From a virus, in IMG/VR virus record IMGVR_UViG_3300032086_002368, positions 1 through 22,547 of that record: 22,547 nt of DNA, one strand, 5' to 3'. The notes under the pieces were generated by a model that worked only from the letters and a program-made list of their open reading frames with translations, was not told where the DNA came from and did not search any database. Shown here piece by piece: positions 14,356 to 21,569 of the stretch; position 1 is the first letter of the stretch, and every line of letters starts with the position of its first letter. The translations under genes were made by a program, and so were the position numbers.

Positions 14356-16437
14356 TTAAGCACCTTGTTGTGTTGTGCCAAATTGTGTTGGTTGCGTACC
14401 TGTCCTGCCAATCACTGCATTCTGCTTCTGCTGCATCTGGAACTCCAACTGCTTGTAGTGCGTTTCCACACGTTGCTTAAATGGTTCCTCCTGCTGCATA
14501 CGTTGCTGAATATCAGGTTGCTGCATCCACTCAACCAAAACCTGCATCTTGGTTTGGTGTGCATCATTAGGTCTGACGTTTGGTAATATACCACTTGAAA
14601 GCTCTGCAATAGTATTACGCTCCTCGGCAACCGCTTTCTCGGCAGCTTGCTCAACAGGTTGTAATACTTGGTTGGCAGCACCAGGGAATAGTTGCGTAAT
14701 TGCCCACTGGAGAAGTTGCTGCGTATCCAATGTGCCTTGCTTATCCAATGCACCTCCAAGATCTGCTGCGGCTTTCACTCGTTCAATTACTTTGGAAGGA
14801 TCAAGAGTAAACACATCAAAATTTACCCAGAAATCGTAACGCTCGCCTGGTTTACCCTTCTCGTACTGTTGCACGTTATTCTCACCAATCACACGGAAGT
14901 ACTCCTGATCTGGCCCGAATTGTTGATACAAGCTAAAGACCTGATCCATTACGAGAGTGTGGTGACGTAACCACTTATTAATAAGTCTCTGCCTCTTAGC
15001 ATCTGCCTCTACTGGATCTGTTTCTGGCCCAGCTCTACCAAGTTGTGCGTTGATGCTGGATTTTAAATATTCACGAATTTCCCTTGAGCCTCCATCATAA
15101 CGGGGAGTGTCTGCATATTTATATTGGTCTGGACGCAATACAGGAACTTTAGTACCTGGCCCCCAACGTGTGGGAGGCTTACCAATTGGGTGCATCAATG
15201 GGGGAAGAGTGGTAATTGACTGGCGATCAATAAAGGAATCTGTCTCCGCCTTTAGTGCCTGCTGTCTGCTGGCAACCTTTTCTGTGGTACTTCTTGAAGA
15301 GTATAGTCTTTTGCTGGTGCGTTCCAATGGAGTAACTATAAATGGATACTTGCCGTGGCGATAGTCAAGTAATTGATGCTTGCCGTACTTATCTTCAACT
15401 CCATAGCAGAATACGGTGCAGTATATACCTGGCACTCCATCCTCATCAATGAGCCTTTGGTAACAATAGATTACACGAATGGTATCATCATTGGTATCTT
15501 CAGAAAAGAAAGTGGAGTCACGATGGCGTAGGTATATATCATCTCCAGTGTTTTGTATCCCACTTTGCTCAATCGCAGACTCCACAAATTCTGAATCCCA
15601 CTCTTCGTTCTTCTCTTTATCCTTCAGTTGCTCAGGGGTCATGTGAACCACATGGAAACAGTAAGGCACTTCCTGAAAGTCAATAGTCCATGCTGGTGCA
15701 AAGAAGTCTTCGTCTGGAGCAAGAGTCCTGACGGCAGGTTGATTAGTAATCGCTTCAGCGTAGTGGATAGTAGTGGAGCCTTTGGTGCGTAATTCACGAA
15801 TCATTGCACCCGCCTTCTTCTCGGAGACATTAAGACCCTGCACCATTGTTGCGGTCAACTGCTCATCCATCTCGCCAGACATAAACTGATCCATAGATGG
15901 GCCGAGTTGCTGGGCAAGTTCATCAAGATTAATCTCTTTCTGGCGTAAGTCCTCTTTGTAGTTCCAGTACACATACTGTACGCATAGCCCCTTCTCTTCA
16001 AGATGGTTGGCAGCAAGTTCTGCTTCGCTATAATACTCCTTCATCTTGGCATTGATAAGCCACCGCATAAAGTTGGAGTTGACTCCAGCTTGCCCCACAT
16101 CATTCATCTCGGTAGGTACTGCTACGATGTTGGCTCGCTCAAGTGCTGCCATATACATATCTACTCGTGCCTCAATAGCTTCATCAGCTTCTGGAACTTC
16201 CTGGTCACTTGCACCATCCCAAGGGAATACTTGCCCTGTCTCGGAGTCTCGGTTGTGTTTGCGGAAGTCATCAGACTTACCCTGCCAGATGCAGTTACGT
16301 GTGTCGTAATCATGCTGCCTGCGATCCATCCACTCCGCAAGGTCTGATTGCGTAGTGCGATACAGTTGTTGCAGGTAACTTACGTCTGGTTCGCCCGAAG
16401 GGGCATAGATCAATTCCTCATCCGACAGTTGCTCCAT
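14356..16437 (-). CDS. Portal protein, P22/SU10-type (693 aa)
   Basis: The size (693 aa) and layout fit the large portal proteins of P22- and SU10-like podoviruses. An N-terminal helical part (QLYRTTQSDLAEWMDRRQHD, about residues 25-44) is followed by FPWDGASDQEVPEADEAIEA (about 71-90), where a polar loop precedes a long helix, a pattern typical of this group. The stem and crown region carries helices such as EAELAANHLEEKG. Later come TLPPLMHPIGKPP (clip/wing region) and a long Gln-rich C-terminus from about residue 600, with MQQQ-type repeats that may form the barrel or be disordered. It would form the dodecameric vertex ring for DNA entry, beneath which the adaptor binds. The ATG 16437 has an AGG about 7 nt ahead. 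The assignment is by overall pattern, not one decisive motif. Confidence 0.78.
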   Translation of the reverse strand: MEQLSDEELIYAPSGEPDVSYLQQLYRTTQSDLAEWMDRRQHDYDTRNCIWQGKSDDFRKHNRDSETGQVFPWDGASDQEVPEADEAIEARVDMYMAALERANIVAVPTEMNDVGQAGVNSNFMRWLINAKMKEYYSEAELAANHLEEKGLCVQYVYWNYKEDLRQKEINLDELAQQLGPSMDQFMSGEMDEQLTATMVQGLNVSEKKAGAMIRELRTKGSTTIHYAEAITNQPAVRTLAPDEDFFAPAWTIDFQEVPYCFHVVHMTPEQLKDKEKNEEWDSEFVESAIEQSGIQNTGDDIYLRHRDSTFFSEDTNDDTIRVIYCYQRLIDEDGVPGIYCTVFCYGVEDKYGKHQLLDYRHGKYPFIVTPLERTSKRLYSSRSTTEKVASRQQALKAETDSFIDRQSITTLPPLMHPIGKPPTRWGPGTKVPVLRPDQYKYADTPRYDGGSREIREYLKSSINAQLGRAGPETDPVEADAKRQRLINKWLRHHTLVMDQVFSLYQQFGPDQEYFRVIGENNVQQYEKGKPGERYDFWVNFDVFTLDPSKVIERVKAAADLGGALDKQGTLDTQQLLQWAITQLFPGAANQVLQPVEQAAEKAVAEERNTIAELSSGILPNVRPNDAHQTKMQVLVEWMQQPDIQQRMQQEEPFKQRVETHYKQLEFQMQQKQNAVIGRTGTQPTQFGTTQQGA

Positions 16438-16472
16438 AATGTGCCTTTTACTATAAACTTATAGGTATAGCG

Positions 16473-16988
16473 TCAAGATTCATCTTTGACCTCTTGAACT
16501 ACTATAGGTGCTGGATGCTTCTTCTGGTAGTCTTCACGGGCATACTCCATCATCTCTGCACGTATCTGTGCTACATCCTTACCACCGATGCGTAGTTCCT
16601 GCTTCTGTGAGATAGAAGATGGTCTACCCTTCAGGGTGAGTGAAAGGTTGGTAAGTGCCACAAGTGCTTTGGGTAGTTCCTTGATTGGGATCTCCTCTAT
16701 ATTGTTAGCAACCCTGTCCGTCATCTTGTCCACTACATAGTCCATCTTATTGCCGAGTCTACGAAAGAACTCATCGGCAGGATACCCGCACAGTTCTTGT
16801 AGCATCATACGTGCTTCGGTTTGAGAAAGCTTGCTGTTCTTAGCTAACTTGTCTGCTTCCTTATCAAGTGTACTGGTCTTTTCAATCAGTGCCATTACCT
16901 GACGCTGAAGTGATAACCCTTGGGACTTTCCTACGAGTGCGGTTGTGAACTCATTCTGATCTGCGGGCTTATGCTCCCTCCGTTCCAT
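16473..16988 (-). CDS. First late gene, possible small terminase subunit (171 aa)
   Basis: A helical protein with no TM segment. It starts MERREHKPADQNEF; an ATG at 17000 would add MENL. I prefer 16988 because GGAAAA lies about 6 nt upstream of it, and because the promoter-like motif ends at 17008, which would leave the outer ATG almost leaderless. Helical segments include RQVMALIEKTSTLDKEADKL (from about residue 29), LSQTEARMMLQELCGYPADE (from about 53) and LPKALVALTNLSLTLKGRPS (from about 104). Small terminases are helical, of this size, and often adjacent to the portal. I see no clear HTH, so this is a guess based on position. The gene ends 35 bases before the portal start. Confidence 0.6.
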   Translation of the reverse strand: MERREHKPADQNEFTTALVGKSQGLSLQRQVMALIEKTSTLDKEADKLAKNSKLSQTEARMMLQELCGYPADEFFRRLGNKMDYVVDKMTDRVANNIEEIPIKELPKALVALTNLSLTLKGRPSSISQKQELRIGGKDVAQIRAEMMEYAREDYQKKHPAPIVVQEVKDES

Positions 16989-17007
16989 AAGGTTTTCCAT
17001 AGGTTGC

Positions 17008-17037
17008 GGCTATTTGTTCCGTTGTAAAAAAAGTCAA
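17008..17037 (-). promoter_or_regulatory. Promoter-like motif upstream of the portal transcription unit
   Basis: On the minus strand TTGACT (complement of 17032-17037) is followed by a T-rich run and then an ACGGAACAAATAGCC segment ending just before the first late gene. Aligned with the motif at 13913-13942, about two thirds or more of positions agree, with the TTGACTT core and T-run the same. It is probably the start of the late transcription unit. Confidence 0.5.
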
Positions 17038-17050
17038 TTCTATTATTGAC
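17033..17050. promoter_or_regulatory. Inverted repeat in the divergent promoter region
   Basis: GTCAAT and ATTGAC form a 6-bp inverted repeat separated by 6 bases. Each arm is also part of a TTGAC -35-like box, one for each strand. It lies between the two divergently transcribed blocks, so it may be an operator or simply back-to-back -35 elements. It has no clear -10 on the plus strand. Confidence 0.35.
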
Positions 17051-17080: not shown

Positions 17081-17263
17081 ATGGCATATCTACTTCTAGC
17101 TCCAATCACAATATTAATTGTATCCGCCATCATATATATTGCCGGACAAATAACATTGGAAGAAGGTAAAATCATTATAATTAGTATACTAATTGCACTA
17201 TCCACATTTGCTGGATTAGTTTTATTAGACAAGCATGAAGAAACTAACATTACAAGAGATTGA
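17081..17263 (+). CDS. Small two-helix membrane protein (60 aa)
   Basis: The first plus-strand gene. Two hydrophobic segments, about residues 3-21 (YLLLAPITILIVSAIIYIA) and about 32-49 (IIIISILIALSTFAGLVL), are separated by a short charged loop (QITLEEGK). A polar tail with HEETNITRD follows. It would be a small inner-membrane protein with unknown function. The ATG at 17081 has no proper Shine-Dalgarno. A better one (AGGAG) sits before an overlapping short frame at 17065, which may serve as a leader. The stop overlaps the start region of the next gene by 29 bases. Hydrophobicity makes the frame credible; expression is less certain. Confidence 0.55.
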   Translation: MAYLLLAPITILIVSAIIYIAGQITLEEGKIIIISILIALSTFAGLVLLDKHEETNITRD

Positions 17264-17901: not shown

Positions 17902-17923
17902 ACTATTTCCAAAAAGGAAACAC

Positions 17924-18364
17924 ATGAATTTCAAAGAAACATTTAAAAACAGTCGCTGGTCTGTAAAACAACTGGCAGAAGAGTCAGGATTAAAGCCTGC
18001 AACTATACATGGGTACATCTCCCGCAATAAACCAAGTCAGGGATTACTTGCTGCATTTGACAGGCTGGAAGAAAGAGCAAAGCAAAAGCAAGCACCTACA
18101 CTTTCCACACACCCCTCACAGGTCTCATCACGCAAGGAGGAGGCGATCAAGCCCAAGGTCGCCCCTCCAATGCGTAAGCTTGAGGAAGATCAAGTAAGTG
18201 GTACAATCGTAGCACTACCTATTAACCAGTACCTTCGCAGGGTAGAGCTGGATAGTGGTGAAGTCATTACTGCTGAATGCAAGAAAGGTAAGTGGCGTGG
18301 TAATCGCCAGCGGGTAGTGCTTAAGAAGGTTGGGGATCGGTACTACGTCAGGGGTCTATTATGA
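17924..18364 (+). CDS. HTH protein fused to an IF1-like OB (S1) domain (146 aa)
   Basis: I chose ATG 17924 because AAAAAGGAAA lies about 4-5 nt ahead. The alternative GTG 17894 overlaps the previous gene and adds ten residues. Residues of about 10-38 form a Cro/XRE-like helix-turn-helix (RWSVKQLAEESGLKPATIHG, then YISRNKP). A polar linker of about residues 50-85 follows. Residues of about 91-140 resemble translation initiation factor IF1: SGTIVALPINQYLRRVELDS, then GEVITAECKKGKWRGNRQRV, matching IF1 GT-LP-RVEL-G-V-TA-KMR in order. The protein would be both a DNA-binding and an RNA-binding candidate, possibly a regulator. The IF1 resemblance is by eye. Its stop overlaps the 20-aa TM peptide. 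Confidence 0.7.
   Translation: MNFKETFKNSRWSVKQLAEESGLKPATIHGYISRNKPSQGLLAAFDRLEERAKQKQAPTLSTHPSQVSSRKEEAIKPKVAPPMRKLEEDQVSGTIVALPINQYLRRVELDSGEVITAECKKGKWRGNRQRVVLKKVGDRYYVRGLL
18136..18168 (+). other. Stable hairpin in the linker of the HTH/OB gene
   Basis: GGAGGAGGCGA (18136-18146) pairs with TCGCCCCTCC (18159-18168): 10 bp with one bulged A and a 12-nt loop. The left arm contains an AAGGAGG ribosome-binding-like site. The right arm ends one base before an in-frame ATG at 18170. Confidence 0.45.
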
Positions 18365-18423
18365 CCGAGGTATTGATTTTCGGATTGATTGCTACACTTA
18401 TAGTCTGCTGGTTGCTACGATGA
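18361..18423 (+). CDS. 20-aa transmembrane micro-protein
   Basis: This tiny frame overlaps its neighbours by ATGA at both ends: its ATG overlaps the TGA of the HTH/OB gene, and its TGA overlaps the ATG of the RusA-like gene. The product, MTEVLIFGLIATLIVCWLLR, is a single hydrophobic helix with one acidic residue near the N-terminus and Arg at the end. The double overlap is strong evidence for translation. The function is unknown; it could be a small membrane modulator or a coupling element. Confidence 0.6.
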   Translation: MTEVLIFGLIATLIVCWLLR

Positions 18424-18839
18424 AGTTCTTTATTCAATGCACTCCACCCAAGAGTACACACCAAGGTTCCATGCGTATCATGAAACGTAAGGACGGAACT
18501 CAGTTTGTGGGGAAGTTTGCCAGTAGTAAGGGTAGGAAAGCACAGGATGAATTGACTGCCCTGTTTATGCCGCACAAACCATCTAAACCAATGGAAGGGC
18601 CATTGATGTTAAATGTGGCTTGGTGCTACCCTTGGCGTAAGGCTGAGAAGAAGTCCAACAAAGAAAAGCAATGGATGTGGTGCGATACCCGTCCTGATTG
18701 CTCCAATCTAATAAAGATACCAGAAGACATTCTTACGAGGCTTGGGTTTGTCCATGATGACAGTCAGTTCGCCAAGATTGTATTCAGTAAGTTTTGGGGA
18801 GACCACCCTGGTATTGCAGTAGAGATTACACCACTATGA
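18420..18839 (+). CDS. rusA: RusA-like Holliday junction resolvase with altered acidic motif (139 aa)
   Basis: RusA-type endonucleases cut four-way DNA junctions in recombination or before packaging. The start at 18420 is set by the ATGA overlap with the TM micro-protein. Residues of about 63-72 form the strand LNVAWCYPWR. The key segment is TRPDCSNLIKIPEDILTRLG (about 90-109), followed by FVHDDSQFAKIVFSK (about 110-124). In E. coli RusA the conserved form is PDxDN, with both Asp needed. Here the second Asp is Ser (D93, then S95). The later Asp pair (113-114) is present. Length fits the family (about 120-140 aa). The fold call is good; full catalytic activity is doubtful. Confidence 0.8.
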   Translation: MKFFIQCTPPKSTHQGSMRIMKRKDGTQFVGKFASSKGRKAQDELTALFMPHKPSKPMEGPLMLNVAWCYPWRKAEKKSNKEKQWMWCDTRPDCSNLIKIPEDILTRLGFVHDDSQFAKIVFSKFWGDHPGIAVEITPL

Positions 18840-19861: not shown

Positions 19862-19908
19862 GTAGAGGCACAAATACTATAAAGAGAGCTAATATATGGG
19901 GAAGATAA
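19858..19908 (+). CDS. 16-aa micro-ORF overlapping the terminase start
   Basis: The ATG at 19858 overlaps the TGA of the 115-aa gene (ATGA). The frame ends at 19908, 12 bases into the terminase gene. The product would be MSRGTNTIKRANIWGR. As a coding gene it is doubtful. It is better seen as a coupling leader that brings ribosomes to the terminase ATG at 19896. Confidence 0.3.
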   Translation: MSRGTNTIKRANIWGR

Positions 19909-21569
19909 CATACACCGATGAGATTGACCCGTATTTCGGGATACCATTTGACTACGACAGGTTCCGTATAGATAGGGGTGAACTTAAGCTTAACCTCCCT
20001 CCTGAGCGTATTGCCAGTATGTCTGACGCTGAGTTACAGACAGTCTACGATATACTCGAGAAGCAACCAGAAGCAGCAATCCAAGATCCAGTTTCTGCTG
20101 GATGGACTCTACCTTCATGGAATCGAGTCATGGAATCATGGGGAGATACCAAGATAATAGTCATTTGGGCTGGAAATCGGGCCGGAAAATCGTTTTACGC
20201 TCATCGTGCATCTGTCCATGCGGCTCGGACTATACCTGATGCCAAAATCTACATGTGGCACGTCAATGAAGAACGCAGTGTGGTTGATACTCAACGTGGT
20301 ATATGGGACAGTCTGCCAATGGCGTATAAGCAGCAAAACAAAAAGAAGGGACAGAACTTTTCCCTGAACTACTCACAGAAGAACGGGTTTAGTGGTAGCA
20401 CCTGCATATTACCAAGTAGTGACCCTGATGTAGTAGAAGGTAGCAGTATCTTCTTTAAGTACTATACACAGTACCTTGCAGACTCACAGGTAGCTGAAGG
20501 ATGGAACGCCCACTTGATTCACTTGGATGAGGAGGCTCCTCTGAAGCTGTTTGAAACAATGATACCACGTCTCACTGACTTTCACGGCAGGTTGATCCTA
20601 ACCTTTACCACATTGAAGGGATGGACACCACTTATCAATGAGCTACTACGTGGAGCTGAGACAACCAAGACCCGCTACTCAGAACTCCTGAACATGGATC
20701 TACCTGTTGAGCAAACATGCAAAACATGGGATAGTTGCAAAATCTTCTACTGGTGGACAGAAGATAACCCCTTCATTGACTCTCATGAGTTGGTGAAGAT
20801 GTATAAGAACCGACCACTGGAGGATAAGCTTGCCAGACTCTATGGTGTACCTACCAACTCGCAGTATGGAAGGTTCCCTGGCTTCAAACGAAACGTCAAT
20901 GTCATTGCACATGACGACCTGCCCTTCATTAAAGACCCAACAATTAAAACGACCCGCTACTTTGTGACCGACCCTGGTGGAACCAAGCCTTGGGTTGCCG
21001 CTTGGTTTGCAGTAACTCAGGAAGGCCTTGTGTATGTATATAGGGAAACACCCACTGACGAGTGGGCAATACCTCACACCAACGCATCAGGTAGACCTAT
21101 CGGCAAGCCAGGTAGAGGACAGAAACCCAACGGTTGGGGATTTGACCAATGGGTAAAACACTTCACTGAGTTAGAAGGCGACGAAGAGATAGAGATCCGT
21201 GTATGTGACCCTGGCTTCGGAACCCAGAAGATTACCATCGGTGACGGACAAACCGACATCTTCTCTGAAATGTCAGAACGTGGCTTTGATATGATCCCCT
21301 GCTATCGTGGGGAGGTAGAGCCAGGAGTTGCCAAGATTAATGACCTCCTCGCTTGGGACGATACACAACCACTATCCTACCACAACCGACCAAAGTTCTA
21401 TATCAGTGACCAATGTGAAAACATGATTACTGCCATGCAGGAGTTCAGCCACTGTGGTAAGGATGAGCACTTTAAGGACTTTATTGATTTAATTAGGTAC
21501 TTCCTAGAGACTGGTGCAATGTATGTTGATGAGAAAGACTGGGAAGCAACAGAATCTGGAGGATACTAA
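19896..21569 (+). CDS. terL: Terminase large subunit, ATPase plus nuclease (557 aa)
   Basis: The ATPase domain has Walker A GNRAGKS (about residues 93-99), Walker B LIHLDEEAP (about 207-215) and a coupling motif LTFTTLKGW (about 235-243). The nuclease (RNase H-like) domain has the expected acidic residues: D359 in YFVTDPGGTK, D438 in VCDPGFG, and an Asp in FKDFIDLIRYF (D528 or D531). The length (557 aa) is typical of terminase large subunits. It would bind the portal and drive DNA packaging. The start ATG 19896 overlaps a short coupling frame, with GAGAG 8-12 nt upstream. It is on the opposite strand from the portal and about 3 kb away from it. The next gene begins right after its stop. Confidence 0.93.
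   Translation: MGKITYTDEIDPYFGIPFDYDRFRIDRGELKLNLPPERIASMSDAELQTVYDILEKQPEAAIQDPVSAGWTLPSWNRVMESWGDTKIIVIWAGNRAGKSFYAHRASVHAARTIPDAKIYMWHVNEERSVVDTQRGIWDSLPMAYKQQNKKKGQNFSLNYSQKNGFSGSTCILPSSDPDVVEGSSIFFKYYTQYLADSQVAEGWNAHLIHLDEEAPLKLFETMIPRLTDFHGRLILTFTTLKGWTPLINELLRGAETTKTRYSELLNMDLPVEQTCKTWDSCKIFYWWTEDNPFIDSHELVKMYKNRPLEDKLARLYGVPTNSQYGRFPGFKRNVNVIAHDDLPFIKDPTIKTTRYFVTDPGGTKPWVAAWFAVTQEGLVYVYRETPTDEWAIPHTNASGRPIGKPGRGQKPNGWGFDQWVKHFTELEGDEEIEIRVCDPGFGTQKITIGDGQTDIFSEMSERGFDMIPCYRGEVEPGVAKINDLLAWDDTQPLSYHNRPKFYISDQCENMITAMQEFSHCGKDEHFKDFIDLIRYFLETGAMYVDEKDWEATESGGY

Follow-up and report, generated by a model that had tools for sequence, protein, structure and literature searches.

The HTH-OB gene and its surroundings

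The window analyzed here comprises the whole 22,547-nt stretch of the virus record IMGVR_UViG_3300032086_002368 from IMG/VR. Toward its right end, it encodes a protein of 146 aa that combines an N-terminal helix-turn-helix (HTH) domain with a C-terminal OB-like domain and is therefore called the HTH-OB protein in the following. The gene, its parts and the neighbouring features are:

16473..17000, minus strand: divergent 175-aa protein, probably helical, possible small terminase; a neighbour in most relatives
17033..17050, plus strand: GTCAAT-N6-ATTGAC dyad, candidate operator or back-to-back promoter elements; sole copy in the window, 0.03 expected
17914..17919, plus strand: AAGGAA, read from the sequence, probably the ribosome-binding site, 4 nt ahead of the start codon
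17924..18364, plus strand: HTH-OB protein gene (146 aa), ATG at 17924, stop codon included; the coding part extends to 18361
17930..18085, plus strand: XRE/Cro-like HTH of four helices (residues 3-54), from the PHROG 4779 match and the model helices
18086..18190, plus strand: linker (residues 55-89), little conserved and loose in the model
18191..18358, plus strand: OB-like domain of five strands (residues 90-145), with IF1/eIF1A as the nearest fold of known structure
18420..18839, plus strand: RusA-like Holliday junction resolvase, the next recognisable gene downstream (phrog_140, E 2.8e-28; PF05866, E 1.8e-21)
19896..21569, plus strand: terminase large subunit, TerL (phrog_2, E 1.2e-13)

The original prediction of an open reading frame with an HTH and an IF1-like C-terminal half was borne out. 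The frame has an ATG, a stop codon and the AAGGAA motif, and its start methionine is common to the window protein and the relatives in three other loci (L002, L003 and L007). Small ORFs lie between the divergent promoter region and the HTH-OB gene, and the portal-to-tail block is located on the minus strand, behind the divergent gene for the 175-aa protein, for which no Pfam or PHROG match was found. A tRNA scan was empty. The divergent intergenic region of the window also contains a 60-aa membrane-like ORF (17081-17263) that is absent from L002 and L007; the difference is probably due to an insertion of about 150 bp in the window or to a loss in L002/L007.

The N-terminal half resembles a regulator-type HTH

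The PHROG 4779 model ("transcriptional regulator") matched residues 3-80 of the window protein with an E-value of 1.2e-5 and recognized 31 of the 32 members of the family that is described below. A full-length AlphaFold2 model, which was calculated from the single sequence and has a mean pLDDT of 72, contains helices at residues 3-9, 14-21, 25-33 and 39-54. Both results support the Cro/XRE HTH that had been proposed for residues 10-38. The best PDB sequence matches of a small family profile were to HipB. The likeness to XRE/Cro-type regulators, PHROG 4779 and HipB is confined to the four-helix N-terminal HTH, residues 3-54. In contrast to these regulators, the window protein stayed below the cut-off of Pfam HTH_3 (17.3 bits versus 23), and the matched models extend up to residue 80 and do not include the C-terminal domain. 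The linker that follows the HTH contains the residues with a pLDDT below 50 in the single-sequence model (73-85), and it is 28 residues longer in the relative from L007.

The C-terminal half is predicted to be IF1-like in fold

In the single-sequence model, strands were predicted at residues 90-101, 104-109, 114-118, 130-136 and 139-145, in the order of an OB fold. The same five strands were obtained when the OB domain was modelled together with one relative (pLDDT 81). Foldseek searches of the PDB retrieved IF1 first, both with the full-length model (9fco_I, E 5.5e-4), for which eIF1A followed and uS12 and proteasomal OB domains ranked lower, and with the OB domain alone (E 4.5e-3, TM 0.70-0.73). 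Other OB proteins, i.e., uS12, proteasomal OB domains, eIF5A and RsgA/YjeQ, were close behind IF1 in the fold search. For the region that had been suspected to resemble IF1, modelling and structural search predict an OB fold with IF1/eIF1A as its nearest matches of known structure.

The sequence comparisons did not yield uniform results. With phmmer against the PDB, IF-1 was found at E-values of 0.06-0.15, ranked below one chance match, a cytidylyltransferase that was rejected. The Pfam model eIF-1a (PF01176), which was detected in 13 of 14 control genomes, did not match the record at E <= 10, and hmmscan of the isolated OB domain did not detect it either. None of the library families searched matched the OB half at a meaningful score. 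In hhalign comparisons with an IF1 profile, the OB half scored 27.2 with four members and 20-23 with 32 members, and these scores exceeded all values obtained with column-shuffled IF1 profiles (maxima of 14.2 in 60 shuffles and 17.0 in 100 shuffles); the profile consisted of seven IF1/aIF1A sequences, four of which agree with PDB chains. In the alignment of the 32 members with IF1, strands 1-4 are in structural register.

Some of the individual letters that had been matched to IF1 are due to chance. The GT and TA positions are not conserved in the relatives. The K-R match (GKWRGNR / GKMRKN) is out of structural register, since the stretch forms a loop ahead of strand 4 in the models but a helix in IF1. 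The domain had also been thought to be short at its C-terminus. The C-terminal strand is present, however. Compared with IF1, both models (resting on one and two sequences, respectively) lack the helix that connects strand 3 to strand 4, and their loop between strands 4 and 5 is shorter.

The domain shares with IF1 / eIF1A (PF01176) the order of the five-stranded OB barrel, the G-x-V ... P ... R-x-V/I-E-L/F-x-D/N-G region and the top Foldseek rank. It differs from them in the fusion to an HTH, the lack of the strand 3-4 helix, the lack of a significant family-model match and a gene context without translation genes. By sequence alone, the link to IF1 is only suggestive. Because of the phmmer E-value of about 0.06, the missing Pfam eIF-1a match and the chance nature of some letters, we call the modelled domain IF1-like in fold, and not an IF1. 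Its descent from IF1 is not shown by sequences that yield no Pfam eIF-1a match and with other OB proteins close behind. Proteins such as uS12, the proteasomal nucleotidase OB domain, RsgA/YjeQ and the cold-shock proteins are of the same fold class. Of these, uS12 scored near IF1 against the four-member profile, but the likeness was gone with the 32-member profile, and cold-shock proteins scored below IF1; neither is a better candidate for the parent of the OB half than IF1.

The original prediction had inferred from the IF1 likeness that one protein might bind DNA as well as RNA and, for example, couple transcription with translation, which would mean contacts to the ribosome or mRNA. IF1 is indeed the nearest solved fold, and genuine IF1 genes occur in huge phages (PMC7162821). 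However, Pfam does not place the OB half as IF1, the strand 3-4 helix is missing in both models, and the gene is surrounded by genes for packaging, nucleases and methyltransferases, none of them a translation gene. The proposal found no support beyond the fold, the neighbourhood points to gene control or packaging, and we regard a coupling function as very improbable.

A family in uncultured phages

Relatives were gathered by alignment scans with the portal protein and TerL, resulting in 165 loci; the TerL scan yielded more than 500 relatives of the window terminase. With hmmsearch, both halves were found in one ORF in 43 ORFs, which represent 32 distinct proteins. All members of this 32-member family belong to uncultured phages, and one of them comes from a contig assigned to an Opitutia MAG (L185). 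When TerL loci had 3.8 kb or more of upstream sequence, 23 of 25 encode an HTH-OB protein, 1.1-4.1 kb before TerL. Among the loci of this uncultured phage clade that are complete enough, almost all thus retain the gene. Among the genome contigs, the three closest TerL relatives include two from Verrucomicrobiota MAGs (L185 and L186), which hints weakly at the host.

Scans of IMG/VR with the single protein yielded only identical or 77%-identical copies; two further hits (L008 and L009) were chance matches within a 1157-aa structural protein. A scan of genome contigs with the OB pair did not reveal any relative. In BFVD, three uncharacterised proteins from uncultured Caudovirales (A0A6J5NAX6, A0A6J5R0W4 and A0A6J7X6S0) were aligned over 145-163 columns, with E-values of 2.7e-5 to 6.6e-4. 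The alignments are long enough for both halves, and the low TM-scores indicate that the domain orientation differs from that in the HTH-OB model. These three predicted structures may share the HTH-OB architecture.

The pairing of an HTH with an IF1-like OB domain had no match among the library models searched, and the literature, which was covered in part, did not contain a phage family of this kind. Judged from the sequences, the HTH-OB proteins form a real family that is apparently undescribed. As huge phages carry true IF1 (PMC7162821), IF1 in phages is not in itself new, and HTH regulators are already known; the provisional novelty is the pairing of an HTH and an IF1-like OB domain in one phage protein.

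A sister clade, the portal of which is about 37% identical, contains a conserved gene for a protein of about 124 aa between TerL and portal (65 ORFs):

L037: 9411-9785
L045: 9420-9794
L048: 6883-7260
L033: 4495-4875
L017 (C75C1): 25689-26066
and about 60 more

The encoded protein has an HTH/wing-like N-terminus, a probable beta C-terminus and the motif G-x-V...PN, and it had no PDB match and no meaningful Pfam or PHROG match. Because the profile comparison was not significant and a PDB match was lacking, it was kept apart from the HTH-OB family, of which it is possibly a remote counterpart.

Selection and exchange of the two modules

Between pairs of relatives, dN/dS ranged from 0.08 to 0.39 in the HTH and from 0.03 to 0.14 in the OB half. 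The linker had ratios of about 0.76-1.1 in three of the four pairs tested, whereas the remaining pair gave 0.23. The values stem from a counting method applied to short stretches, and some dS values were saturated. According to these ratios, both domains are under purifying selection and the linker mostly is not. Positions P, N, R, G and K of the OB half are invariant or near-invariant. The median net charge is +4 for each half, and the OB half contains conserved basic residues.

One family member (L135, 1388-1849) has an HTH that is 93% identical to that of L170 and an OB half that is 84% identical to that of L138. It also has the upstream dyad of L170, ATTGACAGGTCAAT. From these identities, it is a natural chimera in which halves have been swapped between subgroups, showing that HTH and OB half are separable modules. 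The joint transfer of HTH and dyad could be explained by linkage alone, since the upstream region adjoins the HTH end.

Separable halves would also be expected in an ordinary phage repressor whose OB-like part only mediates dimerisation or acts as an effector domain, devoid of a role in nucleic-acid binding, and many XRE regulators have an unrelated C-terminal domain. Nevertheless, the near-invariant P, N, R, G and K residues and the positive charge fit nucleic-acid binding better than a dimer interface, and this explanation appears rather unlikely to us.

Gene order and a possible role in packaging

In the relatives, HTH-OB is usually the first rightward gene and is separated by about 60 bp from a divergent gene for a protein of 172-190 aa; this spacing was found in L119, L170, L138, L145, L133, L131 and others. 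Many loci have a C5 cytosine methyltransferase gene downstream of it, and then come small genes, TerL and portal. The portal and structural genes are on the strand opposite to TerL in the window (14356-17000) but share its strand in L119, L145 and L162; judging from the gene order, the structural block has been inverted or otherwise rearranged.

Because the TerL neighbourhood is constant, the main rival to gene control is a function in packaging. The protein would then be the small terminase itself or a partner that recognizes DNA for TerL; its HTH would bind the packaging site, whereas its OB domain would contact DNA or TerL. The co-occurrence of the gene with TerL and portal is in line with such a role, as are a weak match of the Terminase_5 HTH to the window protein (E 0.0073) and the locus L023, in which the gene is directly between TerL and portal and not next to a divergent promoter. 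However, L023 is the only case of adjacency to TerL; usually 1.1-4.1 kb with the methyltransferase and small genes lie between them (23 loci). Furthermore, the divergent 172-190 aa protein is better placed as a candidate for the small terminase, and a transcriptional regulator model matches the HTH of nearly all members. A packaging function is thus unlikely, although it deserves to be kept in mind.

A candidate operator and the proposed function in gene control

The dyad in the divergent intergenic region of the window has a similar counterpart in L007, with a spacer of 5 nt instead of 6, and many relatives contain short TTGAC-centred dyads 35-40 nt before the start. Region by region, the dyads of the relatives were not above dinucleotide shuffles, and therefore, the operator stays a proposal. 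No sigma-70-type promoters above chance were found at the divergent promoter region.

The divergent position near the operon start fits an autoregulating DNA-binding protein. We give slightly better than even chances to the reading that the HTH-OB protein is a two-module gene-control protein acting on divergent operons of the packaging region, with an OB domain that would contact RNA, ssDNA or RNA polymerase. The HTH would bind the short intergenic region between the divergent operons and thereby control both of them, including its own gene. In a second step, about which we are less certain, the basic face of the OB domain might bind nascent RNA, melted DNA or RNA polymerase. It could then modulate transcription as a co-repressor, an activator or an antiterminator-like factor, and not via the ribosome. 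Several observations speak against this reading: the shuffle results for the dyads, the changed spacer in L007, the small ORFs between promoter region and gene in the window, the gene position in L023 and the lack of sigma-70-type promoters above chance. In addition, OB domains often bind proteins or mediate oligomerisation, which counts against a nucleic-acid role of this domain. In E. coli, the OB protein IF1 functions as an RNA chaperone and in transcription antitermination (PMC3017892). Together with the conserved P, N, R, G and K residues of the basic OB domain, this activity makes a role directed at RNA or RNA polymerase plausible.

A more specific version, in which the HTH tethers the IF1-like OB domain at promoters so that the latter serves as an antiterminator or RNA chaperone for the emerging transcript, is quite improbable. 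If it were true, an IF1-type fold from translation would have been put to use in the site-specific control of transcription, and an OB half binding RNA at a promoter would represent a dedicated, DNA-targeted phage counterpart of IF1 antitermination. Even as an ordinary regulator, the HTH-OB protein would offer a handle on the control of packaging-region genes in phages that have no close cultured representative.

In addition, the TerL genes of the loci differ at one site. In L007 (6234-8339) and L023 (2856-4946), the P-loop of TerL contains an insert that resembles a mini-intein, GNR^C...HN^SGK/SSK, and this insert is absent from the window TerL (19896-21569).
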